Shown piece after piece: positions 763 to 17,638 of a DNA stretch of 20,678 bases. How positions within the stretch are numbered: position 1 is the stretch's first letter; every line of letters begins with the position of its first letter. The translations under genes and the position numbers were made by a program. The notes beneath the pieces are model-generated. The model had not been told where the DNA came from. It ran no database searches and saw nothing but the letters and a program-made list of their open reading frames with translations. The stretch is from Candidatus Altimarinota bacterium (GTDB lineage: Bacteria; Patescibacteriota; Gracilibacteria; UBA1369; LOWO2-01-FULL-3). Location: contig JAOZTS010000007.1 in assembly GCA_029939035.1 (NCBI GenBank), positions 1-20,678 on the forward strand, given 5' to 3'.

Positions 763-809
763 GCTTTAAGTTTACTGACTGGCATAAACACTGGAAATGT
801 CTAGAGGTT

Positions 810-839
810 TTGTGTAGAGTGAGCGCCTTTATATATAAG
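810..839 (+). promoter_or_regulatory. Promoter for the methyltransferase gene, probably giving a leaderless mRNA
   Basis: TTGTGT (810-815) is followed by a TATATATAAG run at 830-839. Using TATATA at 832-837 the spacer is 16 nt, using TATAAG at 834-839 it is 18 nt. Either choice puts the transcription start within a few nucleotides of the ATG at 841, so there is no room for a leader. The -35 match is moderate. Confidence 0.45.
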
Positions 840-840
840 T

Positions 841-2599: not shown

Positions 2600-4446
2600 G
2601 CTTTTGTCTTTTTAGGGACTTTTGTATTTTTAAAGTACTTTTTGAAATCTTCAGATGACAGTGTTTCCTTTTTGATAAGGTCAGTTGCGATTACTTCGAT
2701 TAGTTTCTTATTTTTTGTAATTAGTCCTTCTGTTCTTTTGTGTGCTTTGTCTAATATTTTTTTAACTAATTCATCTATTTTTGCAGCTGATTCTTCGGAG
2801 TAATTTTTTACGTGTCCGAAATCTTTTCCCAGGAAGATTTCGTCATTCTGATTTCCAAAAATAATTGGTCCTAGATCGCTCATTCCGAACTTTGTGACCA
2901 TATTGTGAGCCAATTTTGTGGCTCTCTGAAGGTCATTTGAGGCTCCTGTAGTCATTTCTCCAAAGAATACTTGTTCTGATGTGTAACCTCCGAGAAGTGA
3001 GCAGATTTCATCTTCGAATCTGCTTTTTGATGATAGGTGTTTGTCTTCTTCTGGCATGAACCATGTGACTCCGAGTGCCATTCCGCGAGAGATTACAGAA
3101 ATTTTGTGGACAGGGTCGCAGTTTGGAAGTAGGTGCCCGACAACGGCGTGTCCGACTTCGTGGAATGCGGTGATTTTCTTTTCCTTTTTACTTAGAACTC
3201 TGGATTTTCTTTCAGGTCCCATTACTACTTTTTCGATCGATTGTTCCATTTCTCTCATTCCAATCGTTTTTTTGTCGTGTTTTGCTGTTAGGATTGCAGC
3301 TTCGTTTGCTAGATTTTCAATGTCGGCACCGGTGAATCCTGGAGTTGAACGTGCGATTTTGTTCAAATCGACAGTTTTTGCTAATGGCTTATTTCTTGTG
3401 TGAACTTTTAGAATTCCTTCTCTAGCTTTTGCATCTGGCATGTCTACAACTACTCTTCTGTCGAATCTTCCAGGTCGAAGTAGGGCAGGGTCGAGGATGT
3501 CTGGTCGGTTTGTGGCTGCGATTACTATAACGTTTGTACCAGTTTCAAATCCGTCCATTTCTGTAAGGATCTGGTTCAATGTTTGCTCTCTTTCATCGTG
3601 TCCGCCTCCCATTCCGGCACCTCTGTGTCGTCCAACGGCATCGATTTCATCTACAAATATGATACAAGGAGCGTTTCTTTTTGCTCTAGTAAATAAGTCT
3701 CGTACTCTGGAAGCACCTACACCTACGAACATTTCTACAAATTCTGAACCGGAAATCGAAAAGAATGGTACGTCTGCTTCTCCGGCAATTGCTCTCGCTA
3801 ATAAGGTTTTACCTGTTCCTGGTGCTCCAACTAGCATTACACCTTTTGGGATTTTTGCACCAATACTTGTGTATTTTTGTGGTTTTTTCAGAAAGTCTAC
3901 TACTTCTTCCAATTCATCTTTGGCTTCTTCACATCCTGCAACGTCGTCGAATGTAGTTTTTTGTTTACCTTTTTCATAAACTTTTGCTTTGCTCTTTCCG
4001 AATGACATTGCTTGGTTGTTGCTGGATTGAGCAGATCGCATCATAAAGACGAAAAATGCAATTATTAGAAGGAATGGAACGACCCCTATTAATAGATCTG
4101 TCCAGAATTTGCCTGATTCGGTGTCTACTATAGTAATAGGAAGTGCCAGGATTACGTCTTCGTCTGCTCCTGATTTTTCTAGGATTTCGTAGATGCTGGA
4201 TCCAACTTCTTTGAATGTGTAAAGTTTGCTGCCGTCCACAAGTTCGATGTTGATGCGATTATCTGAGACTTCTACTTTGTGGATTTCTCCGGATTGAGCT
4301 TTTTCTACGAATGTATTTAAAGTGATTTCGGTTGATGGTTGTTGTCCCGAATTAAACATCATCGCGAGTCCGGCGGCAATTAATGCGATTATAATAAGGT
4401 AAATAAAGGTGTTTCTTCTTCGTGGTGGTCTTTGTAATACAGGCAT
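2596..4446 (-). CDS. ftsH: ATP-dependent zinc metalloprotease FtsH
   Basis: A 616-residue membrane-bound AAA+ protease that extracts and degrades misfolded membrane and some soluble proteins. Order of parts: TM1 at about 14-31, a short external FtsH-type domain, TM2 at about 115-136, AAA module with Walker A GAPGTGKT (207-214), Walker B IIFVDEID (262-269) and the arginine-finger region LRPGRFDRR (323-331), then the protease domain with the zinc motif HEVGH (429-433) and the likely third ligand Asp505 in ASNDL. All key residues are present and length is normal. The N-terminus [11 protein letters not shown] is basic, as expected for cytoplasmic side. The 50-nt gap to tilS has no clear promoter; a TTGAAA at 4505-4510, in the end of tilS, is a weak candidate -35. 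It heads the ftsH-hsp20-galU set. Confidence 0.97.
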
Positions 4447-4496
4447 AATAAAAGATTTTGTTTAGATTTTTGACGTCCTTAATAGTGGACTAAAAG

Positions 4497-5495
4497 TTAT
4501 AATTTTTCAATAGTGATTGTGCCGTTTTTTAGCGTCGCGAGGAGTTTTCCGAATTTCTTTTTTTTGTTGCCGATGTTTTGGTTGATGAGGTGGAGAACTT
4601 CTTCGATATGTGTGTTTTCGAGGTTTTTTGTGTTGCCCGTGATGGTTTTGTAGGTTTCTCTGAGGATTGTTTTTTGGAGGGCCGGGTGGAGTTTTGTGAG
4701 GGATTTTGCTGGGAGTTTGTTTGTTGTATTGTGGCGTTTGAGCCAGGTTTGGGCTTGTTGGTTTAGGTAGTCTTGGATTTCTCGGAGGTTTTGTGTGTTT
4801 TTTGAAGTAGTGAGTGCGATGTTGGGATTAATTTTCTTGAAGTGGGGGATTGCGCGGTTTCTGATTAGATTTCTGTTGTAATCGTCTGTGAGGTTGGATT
4901 TGTCTGTTAGGTATGGGATGCGTTTGTATTTGAGATAGTCTTGGATTTGCGTTTTTGTAATGGATAAAAGGGGACGAAGTAGGTTTTGGTCGAGCGTTTT
5001 CATTCCGGTTAGACCTTGAAGTGTTGCGCCTCGTGTTAAGTTGAGTAAAATTGTCTCCAAATTGTCGTCTGCGTGGTGGGCGGTGATGATGAATTTTGCG
5101 TTGTATTTTTTTGCGAGATTATTGAAGAATTTGTATCTTTCTTTGCGGCCAGTTTCTTCGATTCCTTTTTTAGATTGTTTGCTGATTTTTTTGATATCAA
5201 CGGCCTTTGAAACGAGAGAAATGGTTGGCGAATTTTCTTGATCAGGAATCGAGTTATTGTTTAGTTTGTCAACAAACTTTGCGATGAGTTTTTCGTCCTT
5301 TCCGCTTTCTTTCCGGAGTTTGTGATCTAAGTGAGCGATATGGATTTTGAGTGGGAATTTGGCTAAAAATTTCAATAAAAAGATAGAATCTGGACCTCCT
5401 GAAATTCCAGCAATTACCGTGTCGTTTTTTGATAAATATTTGCTCAAAATATTGTGAACGAACTTCTCTAATTTTTTTGCTTCTTGCGGTTTCAT
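4497..5495 (-). CDS. tilS: tRNA(Ile)-lysidine synthase
   Basis: A 332-residue N-type ATP pyrophosphatase that attaches lysine to C34 of the tRNA-Ile that reads AUA, changing both its amino acid and codon identity. The PP-loop SGGPDS lies at 32-37, followed by the HLDHKLR segment (55-61), GRKERY (116-121, a common TilS signature), TAHHADDNLET (138-148) and the LTRGA/GLTGM region (153-165). RPLLSITKTQIQDYL (174-188) and NRNLIRN (207-213) complete the catalytic domain. The C-terminal third is Lys/Asn/Thr-rich and matches the variable TilS tail only loosely. It starts 10 nt after the RNHCP gene, in one transcription unit. On the coding strand C exceeds G strongly (the plus-strand line 4681-4740 has 25 G and 4 C), suggesting a lagging-strand gene. 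Confidence 0.92.
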   Translation of the reverse strand: MKPQEAKKLEKFVHNILSKYLSKNDTVIAGISGGPDSIFLLKFLAKFPLKIHIAHLDHKLRKESGKDEKLIAKFVDKLNNNSIPDQENSPTISLVSKAVDIKKISKQSKKGIEETGRKERYKFFNNLAKKYNAKFIITAHHADDNLETILLNLTRGATLQGLTGMKTLDQNLLRPLLSITKTQIQDYLKYKRIPYLTDKSNLTDDYNRNLIRNRAIPHFKKINPNIALTTSKNTQNLREIQDYLNQQAQTWLKRHNTTNKLPAKSLTKLHPALQKTILRETYKTITGNTKNLENTHIEEVLHLINQNIGNKKKKFGKLLATLKNGTITIEKL

Positions 5496-5505
5496 TTAGT
5501 TGGGA

Positions 5506-5823
5506 CTATTTTGGGTAGAGTCGCTGCTGCGACTTTTCTATGATTTTGTCGAAATTGTCGTCTGGAGCAATCTTGTTTGGAATGATTTTACTGCATTTTG
5601 TGCATTTATGAAAAATATCCTTTTGATCTGCTCTAAAAGGTTCCATCAATGCTTTGCATGTTGATTCTCTGTCTCCTGGGACGTTTTTGTCTACATGTAG
5701 GGAATATAGGCACTTTCGGCAGTGATTCCTGCAGGATTTTTCGAGTTTTGGGTTATCTTCACCACAATTTTGGCAAATGAATGATTCGTTGATGGTGATG
5801 AAGTTCTTTCTCGTGTTTTCCAT
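5506..5823 (-). CDS. RNHCP-domain zinc-ribbon protein
   Basis: A 105-residue cysteine-rich protein of the RNHCP family, named after the RNHCP motif. Visible: C17-x2-C20 at the start of the ribbon, CRNHCRKC at 31-38 (the Pro of RNHCP is Arg here), LHVDKNVPGDR (42-52), C56, MEPF (60-63), and a further C74-x2-C77 pair. These would bind one or two zinc ions. The family is described as possibly RNA-binding, and the position 10 nt ahead of tilS fits a role near tRNA or translation, but that is an inference from context. The start ATG at 5823 sits only 6 nt after a -10 element, so the mRNA is probably leaderless. Confidence 0.8.
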   Translation of the reverse strand: MENTRKNFITINESFICQNCGEDNPKLEKSCRNHCRKCLYSLHVDKNVPGDRESTCKALMEPFRADQKDIFHKCTKCSKIIPNKIAPDDNFDKIIEKSQQRLYPK

Positions 5824-5829
5824 AGTTTT

Positions 5830-5858
5830 TGTATACTGGGTTTATTCCTATATTACAA
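5830..5858 (-). promoter_or_regulatory. Promoter of the RNHCP-tilS operon, leaderless type
   Basis: Minus-strand TTGTAA (5853-5858) and TATACA (5830-5835) are spaced 17 nt apart. The -10 ends six bases before the ATG at 5823, so transcription should start at or next to the A of the start codon. It is divergent from the pilus promoter, with only 4 nt between the two -35 boxes. Confidence 0.6.
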
Positions 5859-5862
5859 CCCT

Positions 5863-5890
5863 TTACGATTGGGGCAAAAAATGGTAGAAT
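5863..5890 (+). promoter_or_regulatory. Promoter of the type IV pilus operon
   Basis: TTACGA (5863-5868) and TAGAAT (5885-5890) are 16 nt apart, and the -10 is preceded by TGG, an extended -10 (TGnTAnnnT). Start would be near 5897, giving a leader of about 23 nt made almost only of A and T with two C and no Shine-Dalgarno sequence. A second -10-like TATAGA lies at 5892-5897. Confidence 0.5.
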
Positions 5891-5919
5891 ATATAGAATA
5901 AAAAATAAAAACAAACAAT

Positions 5920-6510
5920 ATGAAAAGAACTTCTACATTACTTATTCTCGGGATTCTCGTTGTTCTAGGAGTAGGTGTATACACTGGGTATTCTTTTTGG
6001 AAGAAATCTTCCAGTGAGGAAGACCTAAAACGAGTTGAATCTACTTTGACTGAGTATCAAAACAAGCTATTGCAGTTTGAAAGTGATGAGATTTTGGAAG
6101 CTATTAATGCTAAAAGGACATTAGATGACTTGGAAAGCGATATGATCCAATGGTCAAAAGTGATTAAGACTATTAGAAAAACGGTTCCAACTGATGATGG
6201 GCTTACTATTGTAGAGATTCTTTCTTATTCAGGTTCTTCTTCGAATGATATCAATATGAATGTGAAGACTTATCCTGATAGAGATGAGCCATATTTTGAT
6301 GTTGCTGATTTGATTGAAGGATTTGAGGAAAGTTCTGCTTTTGTAGGAAGTTTTGTTCCATCAATATCTGGAGGAACTGATGAAGATGGAAAAGAAATTC
6401 TAACTTTCTTGTTTGGAACAACTTATGTAGAGGCTGATCCTTTGGCATTGTTAGAAAATGATGCGGAAGAAGAAGTTGAGGATGAGGAAAGTGAAGCAGT
6501 TTTACGTTAA
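5920..6510 (+). CDS. PilN-like type IV pilus inner-membrane alignment protein
   Basis: A 196-residue bitopic protein: short basic cytoplasmic start MKRTS, a TM helix at about 6-28, a coiled-coil at about 32-80 (EEDLKRVESTLTEYQNKLL), then a globular part with alternating strands, and a very acidic tail from about 178 (EDEESE region). This layout matches PilN/PilO proteins, which dimerise in the periplasmic or external space and link the platform to the pilus. Sequence similarity to classical PilN is weak, so the name rests on layout and position directly before a PilO-like gene and pilC. No pilM, the usual cytoplasmic partner, is in view. The acidic tail is not usual for the family. First gene of the operon. 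Confidence 0.55.
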   Translation: MKRTSTLLILGILVVLGVGVYTGYSFWKKSSSEEDLKRVESTLTEYQNKLLQFESDEILEAINAKRTLDDLESDMIQWSKVIKTIRKTVPTDDGLTIVEILSYSGSSSNDINMNVKTYPDRDEPYFDVADLIEGFEESSAFVGSFVPSISGGTDEDGKEILTFLFGTTYVEADPLALLENDAEEEVEDEESEAVLR

Positions 6511-6535
6511 TTAATAATATTTAAATACAATTAAT

Positions 6536-7120
6536 ATGGCAGATACAGTTCAAAAAAATGATATTGAGTTCAAGGCTCCTTCGAAAGCCGGGACTTTAAT
6601 AGGTGTTCTATTGGTTTTGGCAACAACTGTTGGATATCTTTTTTACACAAAACCTTTAGCGGCAGATGTGAATGTAATGGAAGCGGATATTACTACTAAG
6701 GAAGCTGAAATAGAATCCATAAAGGGTAAAATCGCTGAATTTGAGAATGCAGAAGAGGAGCTAGGTATTGCGACAGAGGTTCAGAAGATTGAAAGCTTGC
6801 GAGCAATTCCTTCTACTATGCAGCAAGACGAAGTGATTCGAGATGTTATCAATATCACAGATACATATGATATTGAGCTGAAATCTTTGAGTTTTGGAGA
6901 GGGTAGTTCTGAGTATGAGGGTGTGAATGCTCTAAATATTAATGCGAGTTTTGAGGGGAATTACACAGATTTGGTTACTTTCCTTGAGGGAATTGAACAA
7001 AATCCAAGAATTTTCAAAGTAAAATCTATTAATGTTCAGTTAAATGAGCTTGATATCCTTGATATCAAGAGAGCGACTTTCTCGCTTGCAATGGAAGCTT
7101 ATTTTGCTGAAGTTCAATAA
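6536..7120 (+). CDS. pilO: PilO-like type IV pilus assembly protein
   Basis: A 194-residue bitopic membrane protein with about 18 cytoplasmic residues, a TM helix at about 19-40 (IGVLLVLATTVGYLFY), a coiled-coil at about 45-80 rich in Glu, Lys and Ile, and a C-terminal ferredoxin-like domain at about 95-192. In this domain the segment GNYTDLVTFLEGIEQNPRI (141-159) closely resembles the PilO/PilN helix-strand core. PilO pairs with PilN to form the alignment complex above the platform protein PilC. It starts 25 nt after the previous gene with an AT-rich leader and no Shine-Dalgarno motif, and is followed 9 nt later by pilC. The position and domain agree, so confidence is good. Confidence 0.75.
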   Translation: MADTVQKNDIEFKAPSKAGTLIGVLLVLATTVGYLFYTKPLAADVNVMEADITTKEAEIESIKGKIAEFENAEEELGIATEVQKIESLRAIPSTMQQDEVIRDVINITDTYDIELKSLSFGEGSSEYEGVNALNINASFEGNYTDLVTFLEGIEQNPRIFKVKSINVQLNELDILDIKRATFSLAMEAYFAEVQ

Positions 7121-7129
7121 TAAACAAAT

Positions 7130-8431
7130 ATGGAATCTGATATACAAATAAATAGTCCAAAAAAGGAAATGGCTAAAAAGCCTGAAGAGAAAAAAGAAGT
7201 TCAGCATTCTGAAGCGGATGCTACTGATTATATGGTTGAGGGTGTTGTGGGTGGAGCTGATGTTCTAAAAGAGATAAAGAGTTTTGGGAAAAAGAAAGTG
7301 GATACCGTGATTTATGGTGTTTATGATAGTTCAAGTCAGGGAATTTTTACTCGAATTAATGATTTCTTGATTGATAGAACAAAGATCAGCCTGAAAGATA
7401 AGTCTTATTTTTTTCATATGCTTGCTGTGATGGTGGATGGGGGAATCCCTGTTGTGCAAGCGGTGAAAGCGTTAGCTGGAAGGTCTCCAAATCGTAGGCT
7501 TCAAAGAGTTTTGAATACAATCGCATACAATTGTGAGAGTGGTTCAAATTTGAATGAATCAATGAGTCGTTTCGAAGATGTTTTTGATGAGGCGGAAATT
7601 GGAATTGTTCGATCTGGTGAGGCTACAGGGCGTTTGGATCTCATGCTTTTCAAACTTTCTGAACAATTGGATAAGAAACATGAACTTCAAATGAAATTGT
7701 GGGGAGCGGCGGTTTATCCGATTGCAGTTCTTGCAGTTTTGGTTTTGGTAAGTATCGGTATGCTCGTTTGGGTGTTCCCAACTCTTCTTAATTTGCTTAA
7801 GGAAGGTGGAATCTCTGATGATGCGTTACCTTTGCCGACTAGAATGCTTATCACGATTCAGAGTGGTTTGGTGAATTATTGGTGGGTGATGTTGATTTTA
7901 GGATTTTCTGGATATGGATTGTTTAATGTTTTTGTGAAAAGTGATTATGGTGCAATGTCATGGGATTATTGGAAATTGAAAATTTATATAGTTGGGACAT
8001 TGTCTCGAAAGGTATATGTATTGCGATTTGTGAGCTTACTTGGACTTTTGATCGAATCAGGATTACCTGTGATCAAGAGTTTGAAAATTGCAGGAAGTTC
8101 TCTCTCAAACAGAGTGTACAAAGCTCAAGCACAGGAAATTATCGATAATGTAAGAGTTGGAGGAAAGATTTCAGAAACATTGGAAAGTAGTGAGTTTTTG
8201 TTCCCACCAGAAGTTACACAAATGCTTCGTGTTGGTGAAAAATCCGCTACGCTTGGTACAATTTCACAAAAGATTGCAATTCAATATCAAAAGGAGATCG
8301 ATAATTCAATAAGGAAATTATCATCAGTTTTTGAACCATTTATGATCTTATTTGTAGGGTTATTCGTAGCTCTATTAGCATTAGCAATAATGGCTCCAAT
8401 CTTTAATTTGAGTGGAGCAATCGGAGTATAA
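7130..8431 (+). CDS. pilC: Type IV pilus platform protein PilC (T2SSF/GspF family)
   Basis: A 433-residue polytopic inner-membrane protein that forms the platform on which the PilB/PilT ATPases act to insert or remove pilins. Two T2SSF domains are visible, about 92-217 and 297-420. The first carries HMLAVMVDGGIPVVQAVKAL and EIGIVRSGEATGRLD, the second FVSLLGLLIESGLPVIKSLK and TQMLRVGEKSATLG. TM helices lie near 195-222, 250-270 and 402-425. The first 70 residues are charged, low-complexity and poorly conserved; many PilC proteins have such an extension. The start follows the previous stop by 9 nt without a Shine-Dalgarno motif. Length and motifs are normal for the family. Confidence 0.93.
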   Translation: MESDIQINSPKKEMAKKPEEKKEVQHSEADATDYMVEGVVGGADVLKEIKSFGKKKVDTVIYGVYDSSSQGIFTRINDFLIDRTKISLKDKSYFFHMLAVMVDGGIPVVQAVKALAGRSPNRRLQRVLNTIAYNCESGSNLNESMSRFEDVFDEAEIGIVRSGEATGRLDLMLFKLSEQLDKKHELQMKLWGAAVYPIAVLAVLVLVSIGMLVWVFPTLLNLLKEGGISDDALPLPTRMLITIQSGLVNYWWVMLILGFSGYGLFNVFVKSDYGAMSWDYWKLKIYIVGTLSRKVYVLRFVSLLGLLIESGLPVIKSLKIAGSSLSNRVYKAQAQEIIDNVRVGGKISETLESSEFLFPPEVTQMLRVGEKSATLGTISQKIAIQYQKEIDNSIRKLSSVFEPFMILFVGLFVALLALAIMAPIFNLSGAIGV

Positions 8432-8433
8432 TT

Positions 8434-9159
8434 ATGAATATTATAAAAAAAAAAGACGGATTTACTCTAGTAGAGATGCTGATAGTGATGTTCATTATCG
8501 CGGTGCTTTCGACTTTGGCAATTAATGGGTACACAGAATATAGGCGAACTGCTCTTTTGGACTTTGCTGCGGATAGTTTTACGGCTCAGTTCTATGGGCT
8601 TCGTGATAGTACGCTTCATGGGGATTTTGGGAGTGTTGAGTATGAAGCGATTTTAGAGGCAGTCGAGGATGAAAATGTGGAATATGAACCTTTTTCGGAT
8701 CCTAATTATGATTCGGATGTTGCGAGTTGTTTTGGGTATTATTTGAGTACTGATGGTGGTGATTATTCTATTCAAAAATTTGAAATTTCATATAGTAATA
8801 AGCTTGTATATGATGTGGTTAGTGAGACTTGGACAAGGGGTGGATGTGAATATCCTGAGTTGAATGATTCGACTCTGACTGAAACTGTCTATTCTGATCT
8901 TGGGTTGGACGAAGAGATTAGTGTTGTGGGGATTTATGATGAATATGGAGTGGATTTGAGTGAGAATATTGCGATTACGTTTATTCCCCCAAATGGGGAA
9001 ATATTTATTGATCCTGTTATTGCAGCACCTGAGGTGGTTTGGATTGAAATGAAGTATGGAAAAAGTGACGAAGATAAATATAAAAGAAATATTTTTATTG
9101 ATTTGGCTTCTGGCCAGGTCAATGTAACGAGAAGTGATTATGTTGGAACGCCGACTTAG
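8434..9159 (+). CDS. Type IV prepilin, FimT/GspH-like minor pilin
   Basis: A 241-residue class III prepilin. The leader MNIIKKKDG is followed by FTLVEMLIVMFIIAVLSTLAINGY: cleavage by prepilin peptidase is expected between G9 and F10, with Glu at mature position 5, and the hydrophobic stalk continues to about residue 32. The C-terminal head is acidic and Tyr-rich with two cysteines (VASCFGYY and RGGCEYP regions) that could pair. First of four minor pilin genes in the order known for fimU/pilV/pilW/pilX operons, where such proteins form the tip or prime assembly. It begins 2 nt after pilC. FimT/GspH assignment rests on gene order; the prepilin call itself is firm. Confidence 0.85.
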   Translation: MNIIKKKDGFTLVEMLIVMFIIAVLSTLAINGYTEYRRTALLDFAADSFTAQFYGLRDSTLHGDFGSVEYEAILEAVEDENVEYEPFSDPNYDSDVASCFGYYLSTDGGDYSIQKFEISYSNKLVYDVVSETWTRGGCEYPELNDSTLTETVYSDLGLDEEISVVGIYDEYGVDLSENIAITFIPPNGEIFIDPVIAAPEVVWIEMKYGKSDEDKYKRNIFIDLASGQVNVTRSDYVGTPT

Positions 9160-9796
9160 ATCTACATCTGGATTTAGTCTTACTGAAGTGATGATTGGAA
9201 TCATGATTTTGACCGTGGCTATCGTTTCTGCTTCAAATTTGCTCGTGAGTATGGTGAAGACGAACAAGGTGAATGTGCAGAGTTTGCAGGCTTACTATTT
9301 GGCTCAGGAGGGGATTGAGGCGATAAGGAATATTCGTGATACGAACTGGCTACATAATTTGGATTTTATGGGGGAGAATGGGCTTTATGGGTTTGAAGTT
9401 GGTAGGGATTATTATGTGTTTTTGGATAATGGGGGATGGATTAATTCGGGAAATGAGAAGGATGCTACGAGTATTAATATGTTGGATCAAATGAACCCAT
9501 GGATCTTTGATCGTTCAACCTATGCTCAATACAATGACGCGTTTGGTTTGATCAAGGAGGATCCTGGTGGTTATATTTCTAAAGCGGGAACTTCTGAAGA
9601 TCCAGTTTTTTATCGATATATTCAGATTTTGGATGCTTGTGATCATGATGCGGAATTGGAATTGGAACATTTTGATACTGATGAATGTAAGGATTTTATG
9701 TTAGTTCGATCTGTTGTTGAGTGGGATGATGGTGGAAAGCCTCGGGAAATAGCTTTGGAAACCGTATTAAGTAACTGGAAAGGAGGAGCATTATAA
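9140..9796 (+). CDS. Type IV prepilin, PilV-like minor pilin
   Basis: A 218-residue prepilin with leader MLERRLRSTSG, cleavage expected before FSLTEVMIG (G11/F12), Glu at mature position 5 and a hydrophobic helix to about residue 36. The segment LQAYYLAQEGIEAIRNIRD shortly after the stalk is typical of PilV-like minor pilins. I choose the ATG at 9140; a GTG at 9134 is also possible and adds only two residues. GAGAAG six bases before the ATG is a weak ribosome binding site. The gene overlaps the preceding prepilin by 20 nt in another frame. Stop TAA shares one base with the next ATG, so translation of the minor pilins is probably coupled. Confidence 0.85.
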   Translation: MLERRLRSTSGFSLTEVMIGIMILTVAIVSASNLLVSMVKTNKVNVQSLQAYYLAQEGIEAIRNIRDTNWLHNLDFMGENGLYGFEVGRDYYVFLDNGGWINSGNEKDATSINMLDQMNPWIFDRSTYAQYNDAFGLIKEDPGGYISKAGTSEDPVFYRYIQILDACDHDAELELEHFDTDECKDFMLVRSVVEWDDGGKPREIALETVLSNWKGGAL

Positions 9797-10407
9797 TGAA
9801 TAAAAAAGGATTCACATTAATAGAAATGATGGTTGCGATGGCAATATTTGTCATGTTCCTTGGGGTTTTGATTGGTTCATATACAGATATTGTTAAATCT
9901 CAACAGGAAGCCAATGATTACCGGATTTTGTATTCAGAAGCTCGAAGAGTTTTTGACAAGATTACTGAGGAGGTGAGAAACAATGCAATTTATTATGGTC
10001 CAAATGTTGGATATTATACGAGCTTACATACAGATTTAAAGCTATTATCTTTGGATGGGAATCGTCAGATTCTGTTTAGTTATGATGATGTTGAGAAAAA
10101 CATTAAATTTGCTGAAGTTGAAACAGGAATTCCTCCAAATGAATATTTATTAGTAGATTCTGAAGAAGGGCGAATTACCGTTAAAGAGTTTAATGTTTTT
10201 GTTTCGCCAGAAGATGATCCATATAAACTTGAAAATGTTTTTAATGATGGTCTTCAATTTCAGCCAAAAGTAACTGTTTTTGCTACTTTTGAGATGGAAA
10301 GAAGGAAAAGTGACTCTACTTATACTGTTGATTTACAAACCACTATCTCATCTAGACTATATTCGGTGTCGCCGTTACCTATTGATGGTCTATTTACTCT
10401 TGAATAA
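9796..10407 (+). CDS. Type IV prepilin, PilW/GspJ-like minor pilin
   Basis: A 203-residue prepilin with the shortest leader of the set, MNKKG, then FTLIEMMVAMAIFVMFLGVLIGSY: cleavage after G5, Glu at mature position 5. The following helix has SQQEANDYRILYSEARRVFDK, similar to PilW/GspJ proteins, and the head ends in a strand-rich region. Unlike most genes here it has a clear Shine-Dalgarno sequence, AGGAGG about 9 nt before the ATG, placed inside the end of the previous gene. It overlaps both neighbours by a single base (TAATG). Confidence 0.85.
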   Translation: MNKKGFTLIEMMVAMAIFVMFLGVLIGSYTDIVKSQQEANDYRILYSEARRVFDKITEEVRNNAIYYGPNVGYYTSLHTDLKLLSLDGNRQILFSYDDVEKNIKFAEVETGIPPNEYLLVDSEEGRITVKEFNVFVSPEDDPYKLENVFNDGLQFQPKVTVFATFEMERRKSDSTYTVDLQTTISSRLYSVSPLPIDGLFTLE

Positions 10408-11621
10408 TGAATAAAATTGCAAAGACAATTAGAGAAGTGCGAGGAACTGCCTTACTGGTAGCATTACTTGTTATGGGAGTTTTGATTGCTCTTTCTTTGG
10501 CGTTGTCTTCTCTGATTATTGGTGAATCTAGGTCTACAATGCAGTTAATCGATGCAGGAAGGGCGTATTACGCGGCTGAATCCGGGATAGAGCAGGCTTT
10601 GTACAATATGGATACTAATTTGCCTGGATGGGAGGGGAAAGAGGCTAATATTGGAAAGGCTGGGGAGGATGCAGTGTTTACTTATGAGGTGAAAAACCAA
10701 TGTAATTCTTATCCGTGTTTTGATGAGGAAGAATATGATGTTGGTTCGATGTTGAATTTTGCGCATAAATACTATGATGTTTTGGAATTGAATGAAACGG
10801 TTACAATTCCTTTATTTACAGTTAATGAGGATGGAGATATTTTGGTTGTTGAGGATTTTACTGTGGAATTTTTCGTATCGTTTGATCCTGATAAGCATTT
10901 GATTTTTGAAGGAGATATTTCTGGGTGGGATGTGCTGAGATGGAAAATTTTTGCTTTGAGAGAGGCGAATAGCGGAAGTTTCATTACCGAATCTATTCAT
11001 GATTTTACGGCTGTTTCTTCTGCTCAGAATAACGTTACCGGTGAAGAATTTGAGTCGAATGCAGCGATACCTTCATGGTTTGGAACGACTGCGTGTGTGG
11101 GAGGTGGAAATCCTGATATTGAGTGTCTTGTTTATCAAAACCAGAGTCTTGAAGGAGAATATTGTAATAATACGCAGGCGCGCGATTTCTATTTATATGA
11201 TGATCAGGGTGAGAGGTTTCAGGCTAAGTTGCCATGTTTTCCAATAGAGAATTTTTTAGAGAGAAATACTCCGCCGATTCCTAGAGTACCTGGTCCAGGT
11301 CCGACAGGACTTAATTATTTGTCGCTTACGAATCTTATGAATCCTGCGATGTTGGATCCGGATCAATTTAATAATGAGGTAAGGTTGGATATGTCACGAA
11401 TATATTTCAGAGTGGAGACATATGCAGATAACACTGTTCGTGAGTTTGCTTCGATTACTTCGGATGGATTTAGTGGGGACTCGAAACAGAGTTTGAGTGT
11501 GAATATCAAAAGGGATTCATATATGCCGGTGTTTAACTTTTCGGTTTATAGTACTTATAAAGAAGAGGGAAGTATCTTTTATTATGAGAATGATACGAAA
11601 GGCGATAAGGCTATACAGTAA
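10407..11621 (+). CDS. PilX-like minor pilin or pilus assembly protein
   Basis: A 404-residue bitopic protein. The N-terminal RGTALLVALLVMGVLIALSL (12-31) is a pilin-like hydrophobic helix but has no Glu at position 5, as in PilX proteins, and AYYAAESGIEQALYNMD (53-69) is the PilX N-terminal domain signature. The large outer part (about 70-404) has six cysteines at residues 99, 104, 230, 240, 253 and 277 and a Pro-rich PPIPRVPGPGP stretch near 290. It is larger than PilX of Gram-negative bacteria, so it may serve as a tip or adhesin subunit. It overlaps the previous gene by 1 nt and closes the pilus operon; metG follows after 37 nt. Confidence 0.75.
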   Translation: MNKIAKTIREVRGTALLVALLVMGVLIALSLALSSLIIGESRSTMQLIDAGRAYYAAESGIEQALYNMDTNLPGWEGKEANIGKAGEDAVFTYEVKNQCNSYPCFDEEEYDVGSMLNFAHKYYDVLELNETVTIPLFTVNEDGDILVVEDFTVEFFVSFDPDKHLIFEGDISGWDVLRWKIFALREANSGSFITESIHDFTAVSSAQNNVTGEEFESNAAIPSWFGTTACVGGGNPDIECLVYQNQSLEGEYCNNTQARDFYLYDDQGERFQAKLPCFPIENFLERNTPPIPRVPGPGPTGLNYLSLTNLMNPAMLDPDQFNNEVRLDMSRIYFRVETYADNTVREFASITSDGFSGDSKQSLSVNIKRDSYMPVFNFSVYSTYKEEGSIFYYENDTKGDKAIQ

Positions 11622-11658
11622 GCTTGACTGCGGAATGGCATGTTGGTAGGTTTTTAGC

Positions 11659-13161
11659 ATGAGTAAATTTTATATATCTACAGCAATTGCCTACGTGAAT
11701 GCTCCGCCGCATATTGGGCATGCACTTGAATTTGTACAGGCAGATGTTTTGGCGAGGTATCATAGGTTGAAGGGGGACGATACTTATTTTTTGACGGGAA
11801 CTGATGAACACGGGGTGAAGATTTACGAAAAAGCTCAGGAGTTAGGGAAGGAAACTCAGGAGGTTGTTGATGAAAATGCGAAAATATTTATGTCGTTGGC
11901 GAAGACTCTTGGATTGTCGAATGATGATTTTATTCGAACTACAGAGGATCGGCACAAGGCTGGAGCGAAGAAATTGTGGGAAAAAATGGTGGATGCGGGA
12001 GACATTTACAAAGATACTTATAGCGGGCTTTATTGTGTTGGATGTGAGGCTTATGTTGCGGAGAAGGATTTGGATGAGAGCGGACATTGTCCTAATCATA
12101 AGAAGAAACCGAAGGTTCTGGAGGAGGAGAATTATTTCTTCAAACTTTCAAAATATTCAGACAAAATTCGCGAAGCTATAGAAAGTGATAAGTTGAAAGT
12201 TGTTCCGGAGAGTCGTAAAAACGAGATGTTGAATTTGATTGGTGATGGACTGCCGGATGTTAGTTTTTCTCGACCAAAGAAGGATTTGCCTTGGGGTATT
12301 GAGGTTCCTGGTGATGAAAGTCAGGTGATGTATGTGTGGGGAGATGCGCTTAGTAATTATATTACTGCTCTTGGATATGGTGAAGATAGCGAGATTTACA
12401 AAAAATATTGGCCGGCTGATGTTCATTTGATCGGGAAGGATATTTTACGATTTCATGCAGGAATTTGGATTGGAATGTTGATGTCTGCCGGGATTGAAAT
12501 TCCTAAATCGGTTTATGTTCATGGATTTATTACGAGTGAGGGGCAAAAGATGAGTAAGAGTTTGGGAAATGTGGTTGATCCTTTGGAATATGTTGAAAAA
12601 TATGGGACTGATGCTTTGAGATATTTCTTGATGCGTGAAATTCCTACTGCTGATGATGGAGATTTTGGTCATGGACGTTTTGTAGATGTATATAATAGTG
12701 AACTAGCTAATGGTTTGGGGAATTTGGTTAATCGAGTTGTGATGATGACTGAGAAGTATGCGGAAAGTAAGGTGCCGGTGAAGGCGGGGAGTGATGTTCA
12801 TGATGATATGAAGGCGTATTTTGATAAATATGATGCTGCAATTGAGAAGTTTGATATAAAGGAAACCTGTGATGTGGTTATGAGAGTTGTTGATTATGGA
12901 AATAAGTATTTGGATGATACAAAGCCTTGGACTTTGGCAAAAGAAGGGAAAGAGGAAGAGCTGATGGAGGTGTTGTATAGATCTTTGGATGTGCTGAGGT
13001 ATATTGCAATGCTTACTGCACCGTTGATTCCTGAAACAACTAGAAAGATTATTGATCAATTAGGGCTTGAGGTGTCCGAGGACTTTTCGCAGTGGAGCGA
13101 GCTCAAAGAGGGCGGCTCTGTTTCTGTGTCAGATGCTTTGTTTCCACGTTTGGAAGAATAG
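11659..13161 (+). CDS. metG: Methionyl-tRNA synthetase
   Basis: A 500-residue class I aminoacyl-tRNA synthetase that charges tRNA-Met. HIGH motif is PHIGH at 17-21, KMSKS at 297-301 (GQKMSKSLGN). The knuckle contains one zinc site C126-x2-C129 ... C144-x2-H147, the single-zinc C/C/C/H arrangement known from Thermus-type MetRS. The anticodon-binding helical domain fills about 340-490 with NGLGNLVNRV (351-360) and DDTKPWTLAK (419-428). There is no C-terminal EMAPII-like tRNA-binding domain, so it is a minimal MetRS like that of Aquifex-size proteins. GGTAGG about 8 nt before the ATG may be its ribosome binding site. It ends 5 nt from the convergent pilin-like gene. Confidence 0.97.
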   Translation: MSKFYISTAIAYVNAPPHIGHALEFVQADVLARYHRLKGDDTYFLTGTDEHGVKIYEKAQELGKETQEVVDENAKIFMSLAKTLGLSNDDFIRTTEDRHKAGAKKLWEKMVDAGDIYKDTYSGLYCVGCEAYVAEKDLDESGHCPNHKKKPKVLEEENYFFKLSKYSDKIREAIESDKLKVVPESRKNEMLNLIGDGLPDVSFSRPKKDLPWGIEVPGDESQVMYVWGDALSNYITALGYGEDSEIYKKYWPADVHLIGKDILRFHAGIWIGMLMSAGIEIPKSVYVHGFITSEGQKMSKSLGNVVDPLEYVEKYGTDALRYFLMREIPTADDGDFGHGRFVDVYNSELANGLGNLVNRVVMMTEKYAESKVPVKAGSDVHDDMKAYFDKYDAAIEKFDIKETCDVVMRVVDYGNKYLDDTKPWTLAKEGKEEELMEVLYRSLDVLRYIAMLTAPLIPETTRKIIDQLGLEVSEDFSQWSELKEGGSVSVSDALFPRLEE

Positions 13162-13166
13162 ATCGT

Positions 13167-13577
13167 TTATACGTTTATTGATTTGGAAACGAATGTGATT
13201 ATGATTCTCACTAACGAGTAGGAGAGGATTATTAGGAATAAGCCTATAACTGTCCATGTGAGATGTTTTTTGGACTGTTCGAGTTGTTCTGAATCTGCTC
13301 CTCCCATTACCATGTTGAAAGCGGCAAAACCGATTAAAATCACTCCGAGTGGTGCAGCGAAATAGAGTAATGCACCTGCTATTGTTTGGAGGATGATGAT
13401 TGTTGCTGTGCTTCCTTGTGTTTGTCCTGCTAGATCATTGTTGTAATCAAGTTCATCTTCTCCGAAAAATAGATTGTCTGGTCTATATTCGTCAGGGATT
13501 TGGTATGCCTGAGCAACACTTGCTAGAGCTACAAGTAGTAGAATTGAACCGATTATGATTAATAGTTTTCTTTTCAT
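13167..13577 (-). CDS. T4SS_pilin/VirB2-like membrane protein, fifth of five paralogues
   Basis: A 136-residue exported protein with a signal peptide ending near VAQA (21-24), a short outer segment, and two TM helices at about 63-90 and 107-130. The loop between them, MGGADSEQLEQSKKH (91-105), is the diverged form of the G-(N/D)-D ... (A/S)-K core shared by all five tandem genes, and the second helix ends in LSYSLVRI, very close to the fourth-from-right paralogues (LSYSIIRI, LSYVIVI). I infer membership of the CPR T4SS_pilin family, in which two-helix subunits resemble VirB2/TrbC. No cysteine in the mature part. Starts 2 nt after the preceding gene; last gene of the pilT operon; nothing like a terminator separates it from metG. 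Confidence 0.7.
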   Translation of the reverse strand: MKRKLLIIIGSILLLVALASVAQAYQIPDEYRPDNLFFGEDELDYNNDLAGQTQGSTATIIILQTIAGALLYFAAPLGVILIGFAAFNMVMGGADSEQLEQSKKHLTWTVIGLFLIILSYSLVRIIITFVSKSINV

Positions 13578-13579
13578 TG

Positions 13580-14041
13580 TTACTTTGCCTTAAAGAAATC
13601 GAATTGGACTACACCGGTTACGAGTCCGTATGCAGCGGCCATTATTGCCATTCCGATTATTAGATATAGGATAATGTTTTTTGCTTTTGATATGTCTTCG
13701 TCGTTTCCTTGAGAAATGATGTAGTAAACGGCTGCGAATACTATTGCTACGATTGTTATGATCATGGATGCTCCTAGGATTGTTTTCATTGCAGTTTGGA
13801 ATCCACTTTCGAGTGAAATGTCTGGTAGAGCTGCTACTGCGCCAGCTTCTACAGGAGTTTTTACGTTATCGATGCCTCCTGGTCTTTCGAGCATTATGCT
13901 TAATGGATCTAAGCATTCATTATAGATACATCTTGTTCCTGCTGCGCATTGAGAATCTGATTCACATGCAGCTATGGCAGTTCCGGAAAGGCTTAGAATA
14001 AATATTATTGTACTTAATGTAATTAGAATTAGTTTTTTCAT
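13580..14041 (-). CDS. T4SS_pilin/VirB2-like membrane protein with four-cysteine N-terminal motif, fourth of five
   Basis: A 153-residue protein with a signal peptide ending near TAIA (21-24). The mature N-terminus starts with a compact cysteine motif, C26-x5-C32-x5-C38-x4-C43 (sequence ESDSQ, AAGTR, IYNE between the cysteines), which resembles small disulfide-bonded motifs of secreted proteins. A linker follows, then the core of two TM helices at about 87-110 and 123-145 with the loop SQGNDEDISKAKN (110-122). The loop matches the sibling genes best at G-N-D and A-K. The ATG overlaps the previous stop by one base (TAATG) and the next gene begins 2 nt after its stop. The cysteine motif is found in none of the other four paralogues. 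Confidence 0.72.
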   Translation of the reverse strand: MKKLILITLSTIIFILSLSGTAIAACESDSQCAAGTRCIYNECLDPLSIMLERPGGIDNVKTPVEAGAVAALPDISLESGFQTAMKTILGASMIITIVAIVFAAVYYIISQGNDEDISKAKNIILYLIIGMAIMAAAYGLVTGVVQFDFFKAK

Positions 14042-14496
14042 TATCCAATGTTTGTTATTTCATGAACTGTGGTTTCAGTCATATTCCCTTCGTATTTTAA
14101 ATTTGTGACGATTCTTATTATTGAATATGAAAGTATGGCAATGACTAGTCCTATCAGTGCATACATTGCTTGGTCTTTTGCTTTTTGAATTGCTTCGTCA
14201 TTTCCATATGCCATTGAAAACCTTACTCCAGCAATTAACAGCATCAATACCGATAACATTCCCACAAATCCAACTAATCCTACTGCATAGCTTGGTAGAA
14301 TTTTGTTGACTAATATATCTTCAGCACCTTCTTTTTGTTGTGCTGTTGTGTCTGGACCTGGAAGTAGGTCAGGTTTTGGGATGAGTTGTCGTTCGTATGT
14401 GCTTTCCGCAACTAGTCCATCTGCATATGTTGTCATTCCAACTATTGAGATAGAAGTTGTCAGTACTAGCAATATGTAGATTATTGTTTTTTTCAT
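14041..14496 (-). CDS. T4SS_pilin/VirB2-like membrane protein, third of five
   Basis: A 151-residue protein with signal peptide (MKKTIIYILLVLTTSISIVG), an outer segment rich in Pro and Gln (38-55), and two TM helices at about 70-95 and 110-132. The loop AYGNDEAIQKAKDQ (96-109) carries the shared G-N-D and A-K residues, and LSYSIIRIV closes the second helix. After it comes a 20-residue tail with Thr and Glu, which is on the same side as the N-terminal segment if both helices span the membrane. No cysteine. It shares one base with each neighbouring gene (TAATG), the tightest possible coupling. Confidence 0.72.
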   Translation of the reverse strand: MKKTIIYILLVLTTSISIVGMTTYADGLVAESTYERQLIPKPDLLPGPDTTAQQKEGAEDILVNKILPSYAVGLVGFVGMLSVLMLLIAGVRFSMAYGNDEAIQKAKDQAMYALIGLVIAILSYSIIRIVTNLKYEGNMTETTVHEITNIG

Positions 14497-15230
14497 TATT
14501 GTGTGAAGAAGTTAGGATTGATTGTATATAAAATTAGTCCTGACAAGAATAGAATGACTATTCCTGAGATAGATTTAATTATTCGGCCTTTTGCTGATTC
14601 GATTGCTTGTGTGTCTCCACCTGCAACTGATATTTGGACTCCACTAATTATTATAACTGCTGTTCCTATCAAACCGACTAAGCTGGCTGCCCATTTGTAT
14701 ACAAATGAGATGTAGCCAACGATTAGGGATGTTCCTCCTTTACTTAGGAAAACTTGTACAGGTTTGCATGAAGTTGTTACTTGGTAATTATAAGGTTTTG
14801 TGAAATCTGGTCCGGTTAGAGATTCGTTTTTGATGACGTTTGAGCATTTAGTTGCGAGTATTGAAATTACTTCTTCTTTGCCTTTTTTGGGAAGATATGA
14901 AAGGTAATTTCTGTAGCAAATTCTTGCTTCAAACTCTGCCTTGTCTTTGGTTGTTTTTGTGCTTGCTTCGAGACTTAATGGTTCTTCTATTATTGTTATA
15001 ATATATCCAGCGTCATCTCCTGGAGTGCCATCTTCTTTTGTTTCCTTGATGCAGTGATCGTCAGGTGTTATATCCATTAATCCTTCTGCTAAAGCTGCGG
15101 CCATTGAGGAGGTGTCAGGTTCTGTGTCTTTTGGTGCAGGGTCTCCTGCATAAGCTGAAATTGAGCTTATTGATACTAAAATCAAGCTTACAATTGAGAA
15201 TAGTGCTAATTTTGCTATGATTTTTTTCAT
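14496..15230 (-). CDS. T4SS_pilin/VirB2-like membrane protein with large outer domain, second of five
   Basis: At 244 residues this is by far the longest paralogue. After a signal peptide (ending near ISAYA, 24-28) comes an exported domain of about 130 residues with four cysteines (60, 105, 129, 155) that could form two disulfides. Two TM helices follow at about 176-200 and 216-236, with the loop VAGGDTQAIESAKGR (202-216) holding the shared G-G-D and A-K residues. The C-terminal end LYTINPNFFTQ is short. The long outer domain makes it a candidate for a tip, adaptor or lid subunit rather than a repeating unit; I do not recognise that domain. One-base overlaps with both neighbours. Confidence 0.7.
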   Translation of the reverse strand: MKKIIAKLALFSIVSLILVSISSISAYAGDPAPKDTEPDTSSMAAALAEGLMDITPDDHCIKETKEDGTPGDDAGYIITIIEEPLSLEASTKTTKDKAEFEARICYRNYLSYLPKKGKEEVISILATKCSNVIKNESLTGPDFTKPYNYQVTTSCKPVQVFLSKGGTSLIVGYISFVYKWAASLVGLIGTAVIIISGVQISVAGGDTQAIESAKGRIIKSISGIVILFLSGLILYTINPNFFTQ

Positions 15231-15667
15231 TAGCCTAAAATTGATTGTACGGTTATTACTATTACATAGGACAGTAGTGCTACTATGATTCCGATGACTG
15301 CGTATTTAACAACATTTTTGGCTTCGTCGAGTTTTTGTTGATCTCCTTGCGAAAACATCATTTGGAAGCCTCCAATAATTAGTATAATTACGGCAATTGA
15401 GCCCATTACTGTTAGGGCGAAATTGATTATTCTTATGATGAATTCTACGATTGGGTTTTGTCCTTCACCAAAGTATGTTTGTTCTTGTTGTTCTGTTTTG
15501 CTGTCTCCGGTACCAGTTGGATTGAGTTTTAATGTTTCGCTGATGTCAAAGTCCAATTCTTTGAGTTTTATTATGTTTGGATCACTTGCAAAAGCTGGTC
15601 CATTTAGTGCTGTGGCCAGAGTTGCGAATGTGAGTGCCGATAATAGTATGATTGCAATTTTTTTCAT
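15230..15667 (-). CDS. T4SS_pilin/VirB2-like membrane protein, first of five
   Basis: A 145-residue protein with signal peptide (MKKIAIILLSALTFATLATA, cleavage perhaps after AFA near 27), an outer segment of about 45 polar residues, and two TM helices at about 73-103 and 118-143. The loop FSQGDQQKLDEAKNV (105-119) is the clearest example of the shared G-D ... (A)-K core. No cysteine. It is preceded by pilT with a 5-nt gap (TAAACAAAATG, no Shine-Dalgarno) and overlaps the next gene by one base. Of the five it looks closest to a generic VirB2/TrbC-like subunit, so it is the best candidate for a main subunit, but this is inference. Confidence 0.75.
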   Translation of the reverse strand: MKKIAIILLSALTFATLATALNGPAFASDPNIIKLKELDFDISETLKLNPTGTGDSKTEQQEQTYFGEGQNPIVEFIIRIINFALTVMGSIAVIILIIGGFQMMFSQGDQQKLDEAKNVVKYAVIGIIVALLSYVIVITVQSILG

Positions 15668-15672
15668 TTTGT

Positions 15673-16716
15673 TTAGACTTCAAAATCTTTTGGCATGTTT
15701 TGGTAGACGCTTTCTTCTGTGATGAGTCCGGCTTCGAACAGATCGGTAAGCGCTTTTTTCATAGTTTGCATTCCTTCTTTTGTGGAAGTTTCGATTACTG
15801 AATTGATTTGGTGTGTTGTACCTTTTCTTATCATATTTGCGATAGCGCTGTTTGCGAACATTACTTCAAATGCTCCAACACGACCTTTTTCGTCTTTAGT
15901 CTTTAATAGTGTTTGCCAGAAAACGGCTTTTAAACTCTCTGATAATTGTGCTCGAATTTGGTTTTGTTGATCTGATGGGAATGCGTCTACGATACGATTG
16001 ACTGAGTCTGCACATCCTCTCGTATGGAGTGTTGCTAGGACCAAGTGACCGGTTTCTGCGGCTGTGATTGCTTGCTGCATTGTTTCGTTATCACGCATTT
16101 CTCCGAGTAGAATCACGTCTGGAGTTTCACGGAGAGCACCTCTCAACGCTTTTTTGAAGCTGTGTGTGTGAACTCCTACTTCTCGTTGTTGAATGATTGA
16201 TTGGTTGTTTTTGTGAACGTACTCGATTGGATCTTCGATTGTAACTATATGTTTTTTTTGATTTCTGTTGATTTCGTTGACCATGGCTGCGAGTGTAGTT
16301 GTTTTACCTGAACCTGTTGGTCCAGTTACTATCACAAGTCCGTTTTGTAGTGTTGTCGCTTTTTTCAACTGAGCGGGTAGTCCTAATTCATCCATAGTCA
16401 TAACATTTTCCGGAATAAGACGGAAAACTGCAGAAATACCTTTTCTTTGTACAAACATATTCACTCTGAAACGAGCGATTGTTTCTAGCTCCAATGAAAA
16501 GTCGATGTCCAAAGTTTGTTCAAAACGTTTTTTTTGTTCTGAATTCATGATTTCTAGCAGATATTCTTCTGCCATTTTCTTAGTAAGTTCAGAATGTTCT
16601 CCGATTGGGATTATGTCGCCGTTTATTCGAAGCATTGGTTTGATACCTGCAGCAATATAGATATCAGATGCTTGATATTGAACGGCTGTTCTAAATATTT
16701 TCGATAGCTTGTACAT
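15673..16716 (-). CDS. pilT: Type IV pilus retraction ATPase PilT
   Basis: A 347-residue secretion ATPase that depolymerises type IV pili by acting on PilC from the cytoplasm. Visible: N-terminal PAS-like part with ASDIYIAAG (16-24), Walker A GPTGSGKT (132-139), Asp box HIVTIEDPIEYVH (156-168), Walker B PDVILLGEMRD (199-209), His box HLVLATLHT (224-232), and AIANMIRKG (291-299) as a divergent form of the PilT AIRNLIRE box. There is no N-terminal PilB-type extension. It is the first gene of the five-pilin operon, not of the classical pilus operon, which is unusual. A strong promoter sits 33-61 nt upstream; the leader is A-rich and lacks a Shine-Dalgarno motif. Confidence 0.95.
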   Translation of the reverse strand: MYKLSKIFRTAVQYQASDIYIAAGIKPMLRINGDIIPIGEHSELTKKMAEEYLLEIMNSEQKKRFEQTLDIDFSLELETIARFRVNMFVQRKGISAVFRLIPENVMTMDELGLPAQLKKATTLQNGLVIVTGPTGSGKTTTLAAMVNEINRNQKKHIVTIEDPIEYVHKNNQSIIQQREVGVHTHSFKKALRGALRETPDVILLGEMRDNETMQQAITAAETGHLVLATLHTRGCADSVNRIVDAFPSDQQNQIRAQLSESLKAVFWQTLLKTKDEKGRVGAFEVMFANSAIANMIRKGTTHQINSVIETSTKEGMQTMKKALTDLFEAGLITEESVYQNMPKDFEV

Positions 16717-16748: not shown

Positions 16749-16777
16749 ATTATAGCATTTTTGGGCACTTTGAACAA
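16749..16777 (-). promoter_or_regulatory. Strong promoter of the pilT-pilin operon
   Basis: Minus-strand TTGTTC (16772-16777) and a perfect TATAAT (16749-16754) are separated by 17 nt. The start should lie near 16742, giving a leader of about 26 nt, A-rich and without a Shine-Dalgarno motif. It is one of the best sigma70-type matches in the window. Confidence 0.75.
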
Positions 16778-16819: not shown

Positions 16820-17638
16820 TTATCTAAGAACCTTTAAGTCTAATGGGTCTATTGGTTCATCAGCTCGAGTGTCATCAGCAACCGGAGGATCTCCGAGAAC
16901 TGGTTCATCAGTGATTGGTTCATCAGTGATTGGCTCATCAAGAACTGGTTCGTCTGTGACGGGCTCGTCTTTAAGTTCTGTTAGACTAGGAAATGAGTCA
17001 TCGACTTCTTCTAGAACTGCATCTTCGAATACCTCGAGGTCTTCTTCTACTGGAGGGGCATAAATATCCTCCAATTCGTCTACAATTTCATCCAGCTCTT
17101 CCATTGCTTCAGAAGGTTCTTCGGTGACTTCATCTGTAGATTCAGAGGTGGAAAGTGTGTTTGTTGTAGGGATTTCTGATTCTTCAACAACATCTGCAGG
17201 TCCTGCAAAGAAATAGGTATAAGCGAAATATCCGCCAGCTAGGATTGCAATGACTACAATTATTATTATAAGGTATTTTTTTGAACTTTTTGTTGCGTCT
17301 GGTGTTTCCGATTCTGGTTCAGTTGCTTCTGTTAGACCTTCTTCTAGCTTTTTTTCTAGATCTTCTGGCTCAGCAGGTGCTTCCTCTTCAGCAGCTTCTT
17401 CCTCTGTTGGAGTAATGTCGACCGGTTCTGTTGGAGCTGGTTCGGCTGGTGTTTCTGCAGCAGGTTCAACAGGAGCAGCTGGATTAACAGGAGCTTCTGG
17501 AGTTCCGTTCCCAGTGTTTAGTGGGTTTGCAGGAGCATCAGTTGGTTGTTGTGCAGGTGCGTCTGGATTAGCTTGAAGTGAATCTTGGTCTATCGAAAAT
17601 GTTTTGTCGTCTGGATTTTGTGTGTTTTCATCAGGCAT
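16820..17638 (-). CDS. Pro/Glu/Ala-rich single-pass membrane protein with DEP repeats
   Basis: A 272-residue protein, mostly low complexity. Residues 1-118 are disordered and rich in Pro, Ala and Glu, followed by KSSKK and one TM helix at about 121-145 (YLIIIIVVIAILAGGYFAYTYFF). The positive-inside rule puts the long N-terminal part in the cytoplasm and the acidic C-terminal part (146-272) outside. The latter ends in five DEP-x-x pentapeptides (224-248: DEPVT, DEPVL, DEPIT, DEPIT, DEPVL). No known domain is seen; possible jobs are a wall-spanning spacer or a regulator of a surface structure. It starts 22 nt after the preceding gene and ends about 100 nt before pilT, which has its own promoter. 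Confidence 0.7.
   Translation of the reverse strand: MPDENTQNPDDKTFSIDQDSLQANPDAPAQQPTDAPANPLNTGNGTPEAPVNPAAPVEPAAETPAEPAPTEPVDITPTEEEAAEEEAPAEPEDLEKKLEEGLTEATEPESETPDATKSSKKYLIIIIVVIAILAGGYFAYTYFFAGPADVVEESEIPTTNTLSTSESTDEVTEEPSEAMEELDEIVDELEDIYAPPVEEDLEVFEDAVLEEVDDSFPSLTELKDEPVTDEPVLDEPITDEPITDEPVLGDPPVADDTRADEPIDPLDLKVLR
16895..16969 (-). repeat. Pentapeptide-coding 15-bp tandem repeat (DEP-x-x)
   Basis: Five in-frame 15-bp units encode DEP followed by V/I and T/L. Two neighbouring units, 16901-16915 and 16916-16930, are identical in DNA, which suggests recent duplication by slippage; the others differ at third positions and a few more. Confidence 0.75.

Follow-up and report, generated by a model that had tools for sequence, protein, structure and literature searches.

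A tandem array of five divergent VirB2-like pilin genes behind pilT keeps its number and nearly its order across related Gracilibacteria

The DNA analysed here, referred to below as the window, is a stretch of 20,678 nucleotides (nt) from Candidatus Altimarinota bacterium (Gracilibacteria; GenBank assembly GCA_029939035.1, contig JAOZTS010000007.1). It is contig C29 of a draft genome of 1.10 Mb that is 89% complete. On its minus strand pilT, encoding a PilT/PilU-type ATPase, is followed by five tandem genes for VirB2-like pilins. This arrangement had been reported in a preliminary description made from the sequence alone and was confirmed, including the gaps between successive genes, which were re-measured as 5, −1, −1, −1 and 2 nt. 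The features of the locus are listed below with product lengths in amino acids (aa).

15673..16716, minus strand: pilT, heading the operon; PilT/PilU-type ATPase of 347 aa (TIGR01420; tree of 61 PilT rows)
15230..15667, minus strand: position-1 VirB2-like pilin, 145 aa (PF18895, 36.6 bits; position orthology)
14496..15230, minus strand: position-2 VirB2-like pilin, 244 aa, outer domain rich in beta structure (PF18895, 32.8 bits; AlphaFold2 (AF2) model; position orthology)
14041..14496, minus strand: position-3 VirB2-like pilin, 151 aa (PF18895, 32.3 bits; consensus of 36 sequences, iPkp..LPGp in the outer segment)
13580..14041, minus strand: position-4 VirB2-like pilin, 153 aa (PF18895, 26.8 bits; position orthology)
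13167..13577, minus strand: position-5 VirB2-like pilin, 136 aa (PF18895, 27.1 bits; position orthology)
16749..16757, minus strand: promoter-like box of the extended −10 type, TGCTATAAT, 32 nt ahead of the start codon of pilT
11659..13161, plus strand: methionyl-tRNA synthetase-like gene (metG), 500 aa, convergent with the array (named by eye from sequence)
5920..11621, plus strand: type IV pilus cluster with pilN/pilO-like genes, pilC (7130-8431) and prepilin-like genes (named by eye from sequence)

Hydropathy analysis gave one common plan for the five pilins, with a hydrophobic stretch at the N-terminus, an outer segment whose length varies and two hydrophobic helices flanking a short loop, as had been described, and the loops quoted at that time are present in the translations. 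By this measure all five have the VirB2-type layout of a signal peptide, two membrane helices and a short polar loop. The profile of type IV secretion system (T4SS) pilins, PF18895 (T4SS_pilin), was passed by 5/5 with scores of 26.8-36.6 bits against a cut-off of 26.6, positions 4 and 5 being barely over it, which agrees with the proposal that the five are paralogues of one family. The TrbC/VirB2 profile PF04956, in contrast, was passed by none: two of the five scored 20.2 and 20.1 bits, below the cut-off of 27.9, and the other three gave no match at E≤1. In the AF2 model of the position-2 pilin (pLDDT 85.1, pTM 0.69) the helices span residues 166-202 and 207-237. The VIA rows of the fold comparison were mostly confined to the generic hairpin.

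To follow the array in related genomes we used a sample of 60 genomes of the order, drawn as relatives and including the window's own genome, and a pilin profile made from the window's own domains and then extended by iteration. The stretches fetched were the surroundings of pilT plus arrays located elsewhere in these genomes. T4SS_pilin matches were present in 60/60 genomes, and an array, defined as three or more pilin domains, was found in 51. Outside these 51, a single pilin sits at the end of a contig in G017, and G049 lies at a contig edge; the count also leaves out G010, G013, G015, G025, G029, G034 and G055. Five domains were found in 44 of the arrays, four in three, three in three and six in one. 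Of the six short arrays, 5/6 are cut by a contig end, and the remaining one (G006) reads 1-2-3-5 by profile, with a position-4 hairpin split over two frames between 3 and 5 as judged by eye. The recurrence of number and order in relatives, raised as a question by the preliminary description, was thereby borne out.

Each position in the array has its own identity. For 218/220 domains of the 44 five-domain arrays, which cover 14 families, the best match in another genome stood at the same position, while 1000 shuffles of the labels within genomes averaged 44 such matches and never exceeded 69. Across these genomes the copies thus do not behave like the interchangeable or shuffled members of a variable-antigen array. 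Both misses came from one genome with the order 2-1-3-4-5 (G024); an array cut at a contig end reads 2-1-3-4 (G005), and in the six-member array (G031) two domains are closest to position 1. Mean identity is 23% between paralogues (at most 35%) and 41% between domains at the same position in different genomes. Individual positions also carry marks of their own: for example, position 1 ends in VQS, position 2 has conserved cysteines and ends in ILYtiNPtFF, and position 3 contains iPkp..LPGp. Eight genomes have fusions of neighbouring pilins, joining positions 3 and 4 in seven of them and 4 and 5 in the other, and five domains are always kept. Called gaps between array genes were ≤40 nt in 183/188 cases; gene starts were set mechanically, and some gap values are therefore off. 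A fixed number, position identity and fusions of neighbours would be expected if the five pilins are separate components of a single assembly, but not if they formed a store of variants that can stand in for one another.

The preliminary description had also drawn attention to the adjacency of pilT, and this extends well beyond the window's own genome. The window PilT scored 455.3 bits with TIGR01420 (cut-off 319.1). A pilT gene lies upstream of the array on the same strand in 40/51 cases, in 32 directly (≤36 nt or overlapping) and in 8 with 0.3-1.5 kb between. In family f1 a pilin stands directly behind pilT in 25/25 genomes with a PilT match (24 arrays and the cut array of G017). Five arrays have ftsK upstream at a distance of 4-1086 nt, the identification resting on Pfam for G039 and G054 and on similarity for the other three. 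A VirD4/TrwB-like coupling ATPase is upstream in two arrays and in G047, and in 3/3 genomes of family f4 the gene immediately upstream of the array encodes a VirD4/TrwB-type coupling ATPase. The G047 coupling ATPase and the position-1 pilin form one continuous frame of 826 aa (7372-9852, minus strand). Three arrays have no pilT, ftsK or coupling ATPase upstream in the stretch covered; two of these start at a contig end. Just upstream of pilT the window encodes an acidic protein with a single helix and, at its C-terminus, a DEPITDEPV-type repeat (16820-17638, minus strand); judged by eye, G054 has a shorter likely relative, likewise ahead of pilT.

The 61 PilT proteins placed in a tree fell into two clades of 47 and 14 rows, both at 100/100 support. 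Pilins were nearby in 41/47 rows of the first clade and in 0/14 of the second, and in the eight genomes where both PilT types were fetched pilins lay near the first type only. Outside the order, pilin domains were detected in 0/20 fetched PilT loci within the stretch covered, and 10/20 of these adjoin pilC; the 20 were picked from 114 matching genomes for match strength, kinship or single-contig genomes. The link between array and pilT, while real, is not obligatory: arrays are present in G031 and G042, where no PilT was found at E≤1e-60, three f4 genomes and one f16 genome combine an array with the non-array PilT type only, and the array-type pilT is located apart from the array in five genomes. 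Among named genomes, those with the closest PilT relatives mostly bear the label Ca. Peregrinibacteria; some are labelled Ca. Peribacteria, and a few have odd labels. Two records titled Nitrospirae/Nitrospirota contain PilT proteins 95% and 92% identical to the window PilT, and these titles therefore look wrong.

Joint transcription of pilT and the pilins had been suggested. In the window TGNTATAAT has 3 matches compared to 0.88 expected, a number reached in 5/100 shuffles. Across genomes, TGNTANAAT occurs ≤90 nt upstream of 35/47 array-type pilT genes but in only 3/520 control stretches inside pilT. Judging from this promoter-like box, the operon most likely starts at pilT. The part of the suggestion that concerned common control is consistent with the box; the use of PilT as a motor by the pilins was not supported.

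The most constant neighbour of the array in the order is metG, whose homologue is convergent behind 42/43 arrays with ≥1.7 kb of downstream sequence, the exception being G044. A pilC homologue lies 4.1-5.7 kb past the array in 23/51 loci; many of the remaining stretches are too short to show one. In G160 and G187, the two genomes searched from a sister family within the same class, a metG-like gene was seen by eye directly behind the array. The locus thus seems older than the order, even though the arrays of these two genomes have four domains by the profile built here.

As had been stated, no VirB4, VirB6 or VirD4 was found in the window, with which the scan of nine window proteins, a subset of its open reading frames (ORFs), is consistent. 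Of the VirB4 and VirB6 proteins that might be sought elsewhere, VirB4 (PF19044) was found on contig C91 of the window's own genome, while a search of this genome with PF04610 (TrbL/VirB6) gave no match. VirB6 homologues are reported to be absent from Gracilibacteria, perhaps by divergence, in the part of PMC12102498 consulted. VirB4 was over the cut-off in 53/60 genomes of the order. In the own genome the VirB4-like gene appears as two overlapping ORFs of 286 and 510 aa (C91, 4284-6618) beside genes that are gyrase-like by eye; the strong virB4 matches of relatives are mostly in frames of about 630-870 aa. The own genome also encodes PrgI, and a neighbour of PrgI has a weak, below-cut-off TraC match (E 0.0019), such as a TrsD-like protein might give. 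Four matches to a VirD4-like ATPase were found there as well. Outside the order, 13/15 genomes have pilins, which lie 5.6-12.9 kb from virB4 in 7/13, including G160 and G187.

The own genome contains 15 T4SS_pilin matches, 14 of them above the cut-off. Five belong to the array, three are single genes (at 1183-1827, 329-712 and 10694-11071 of three separate stretches) and the rest are on contig C28, which encodes two proteins of three fused pilin domains each and a pilin domain heading a PKD-repeat protein (14-4922 and 5082-6242). The row three-domain, three-domain, pilin-plus-PKD was seen in 19/20 loci fetched for it, in addition to the own locus, with the last member split in G046; the loci were chosen for hits in long frames, and this recurrence is no estimate of frequency. 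Each fused domain has its own orthologues (120/120 nearest labels). In the first fused protein, the final domain aligned to position 1 with a probability of 97.6. In some genomes an additional PKD protein behind the fused row has a weak pilin-like hairpin. The PKD giant is in two frames in the own contig, of 961 aa followed by an open frame of 387 aa, and in a single frame of 1,367-1,856 aa in 18/19 relatives. A lone pilin stands behind a gene of 283-304 aa in 6/10 stretches fetched from relatives. In G180, from outside the order, pilin domains occur in very long frames of 667 aa and at least 2,258 aa (5222-14001).

Divergent pilin arrays as such are already published; what is new is an array fixed in number and position. 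In Patescibacteria 441 arrays of 2-11 VirB2-like pilin genes with about 25% identity were found in 383 assemblies, according to the part of PMC12102498 consulted. In Southlakia, going by the parts of the sources consulted, an essential pilin series lies within the T4SS cluster (PMC10633639), and there are six sequence-divergent pilins, along with the idea of a conduit (PMC12857230). The array described here resembles these in being tandem, in belonging to a family whose profile, PF18895, is among those used, and in the identity among members; unlike them it has five position-conserved members behind pilT, ftsK or a coupling ATPase, away from virB4. In the main text of PMC12102498, pilT has 0 occurrences, and the parts of it consulted do not mention positional orthology. 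This paper was the only one that turned up as naming T4SS_pilin or PF18895, and a search by title and start of abstract, with supplements and most subscription papers outside its scope, found no paper on a fixed five-pilin set.

With the VirB2/TraA pilins of the F pilus and T-pilus, the five share the two-helix hairpin, the short loop and the signal peptide, along with the weak TrbC scores in two of them. Those pili, however, are five-start structures built from one pilin each, as described in the parts of PMC9259494 and PMC9905601 consulted, compared to five different subunits here, and position 2 carries a sizeable outer domain. The archaeal Ced and Ted DNA import systems are likewise domesticated chromosomal T4SS derivatives with VirB4-, VirB6- and VirB2-like parts, but with one pilin per system (CedA1, TedC) and no five-member array in the part of PMC9905601 consulted; Ced import requires type IV pili, as stated in PMC12102498. 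The window PilT is like PilT/PilU ATPases of type 4a pili, except that its gene heads a VirB2-like pilin operon.

We favour a reading, with a probability of roughly 0.6, in which the array encodes the heteromeric VirB2-like part of a reduced T4SS, made of five non-interchangeable subunits and co-expressed with PilT. The five subunits would assemble jointly, probably into a heteromeric pilus stub or a membrane-spanning collar. The assembly would be part of a dispersed chromosomal T4SS whose VirB4, PrgI, TrsD-like protein and VirD4-like ATPases are encoded elsewhere. Since pilT heads the operon in most of the order, the pilins would be produced along with what is probably the retraction ATPase of the type IV pili encoded nearby, and such joint control would likely let these pili pull the cell towards a partner, at whose contact the T4SS-like structure then acts. 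The coupling ATPase directly upstream in f4 and the pilins near virB4 in genomes outside the order argue for the T4SS part. The hetero-oligomer of five put forward earlier stays the best reading of the genes, without PilT as its probable motor.

Several observations weigh against this reading. None of nine virB4 stretches from the order (the own genome and eight others) contained a pilin domain. Among the strong matches listed, virB4 and the array share a contig in five genomes (G007, G014, G018, G045 and G059) and are >100 kb apart there; the remaining listed matches are on contigs other than the array's, so that distance cannot be judged. In 6/13 outside genomes with pilins none was found within 13 kb of virB4. 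The own genome has no PF04610 match, and the PF04956 cut-off is missed by all five pilins. Neither the position-2 model nor the three-domain model, which is itself weak (pLDDT 66.9, pTM 0.39), had a match in the PDB at E≤0.001. Interaction, transcript and filament are predicted from genes. Finally, the fixed order could partly reflect strong synteny of the locus, although synteny leaves paralogues that persist at 23% identity unexplained.

An elaboration of this reading, which we consider speculative and unlikely, draws on the five-start VirB2 assemblies of conjugative pili, which stand on a VirB6 pentamer in the part of PMC9259494 consulted: each pilin would make up one protofilament out of the five in a five-start pilus, so that the tube would be asymmetric and address-coded, and the three-domain fused proteins would replace VirB6 as a ready-joined base or channel. 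The fused proteins are candidates for the missing VirB6 because a part of CedA and, more weakly, VirB6 resemble pilin in the part of PMC9905601 consulted; direct comparisons of the fused proteins with VirB6-like proteins found nothing. The pilins could instead form the membrane channel of the type IV pilus or DNA-uptake machinery and be no part of a T4SS. The company of metG, pilC and often pilT would suit such a channel, which is nevertheless improbable given the coupling ATPase directly upstream in f4, the proximity to virB4 in 7/13 outside genomes and a family profile that is that of T4SS pilins.

We find it about as improbable that PilT is a dedicated motor of the five pilins, as VirB11 is for VirB2, and not the retraction ATPase of type IV pili. 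The confinement of pilin neighbours to one PilT clade, also in genomes with both types, and the box ahead of pilT speak for a dedicated motor; against it stand arrays in genomes with no PilT at E≤1e-60 or with only the other type, arrays behind ftsK or a coupling ATPase, array-type pilT genes apart from the array and the type IV pilus cluster at the same locus, which PilT may serve. In f1 the window-type PilT is the only candidate retraction ATPase found, as it is the sole PilT at E≤1e-60 in all 25 genomes with a match except G012. Least probable in our view is a store of surface variants for antigenic or host-range variation, proposed for Patescibacteria by analogy with Bartonella and Anaplasma in the part of PMC12102498 consulted. 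The strong divergence of the paralogues and the very different lengths of outer segments (position-1 proteins range over 88-298 aa, the lower figure coming from a protein truncated at a contig end) are what such a store would show, but number and position are kept across families, and the changes observed are positions 1 and 2 exchanged in G024 and in the truncated array of G005, the extra position 1 in G031 and the frame-broken position 4 in G006.

Five subunits conserved position by position over 14 families point to a heteromeric VirB2-like machine instead of variation. With this, the role of the essential, unexplained T4SS of Patescibacteria becomes testable one subunit at a time, and the repeated linkage to pilT and to coupling ATPase genes offers a starting point for studying how epibiotic cells may coordinate type IV pili with the T4SS.

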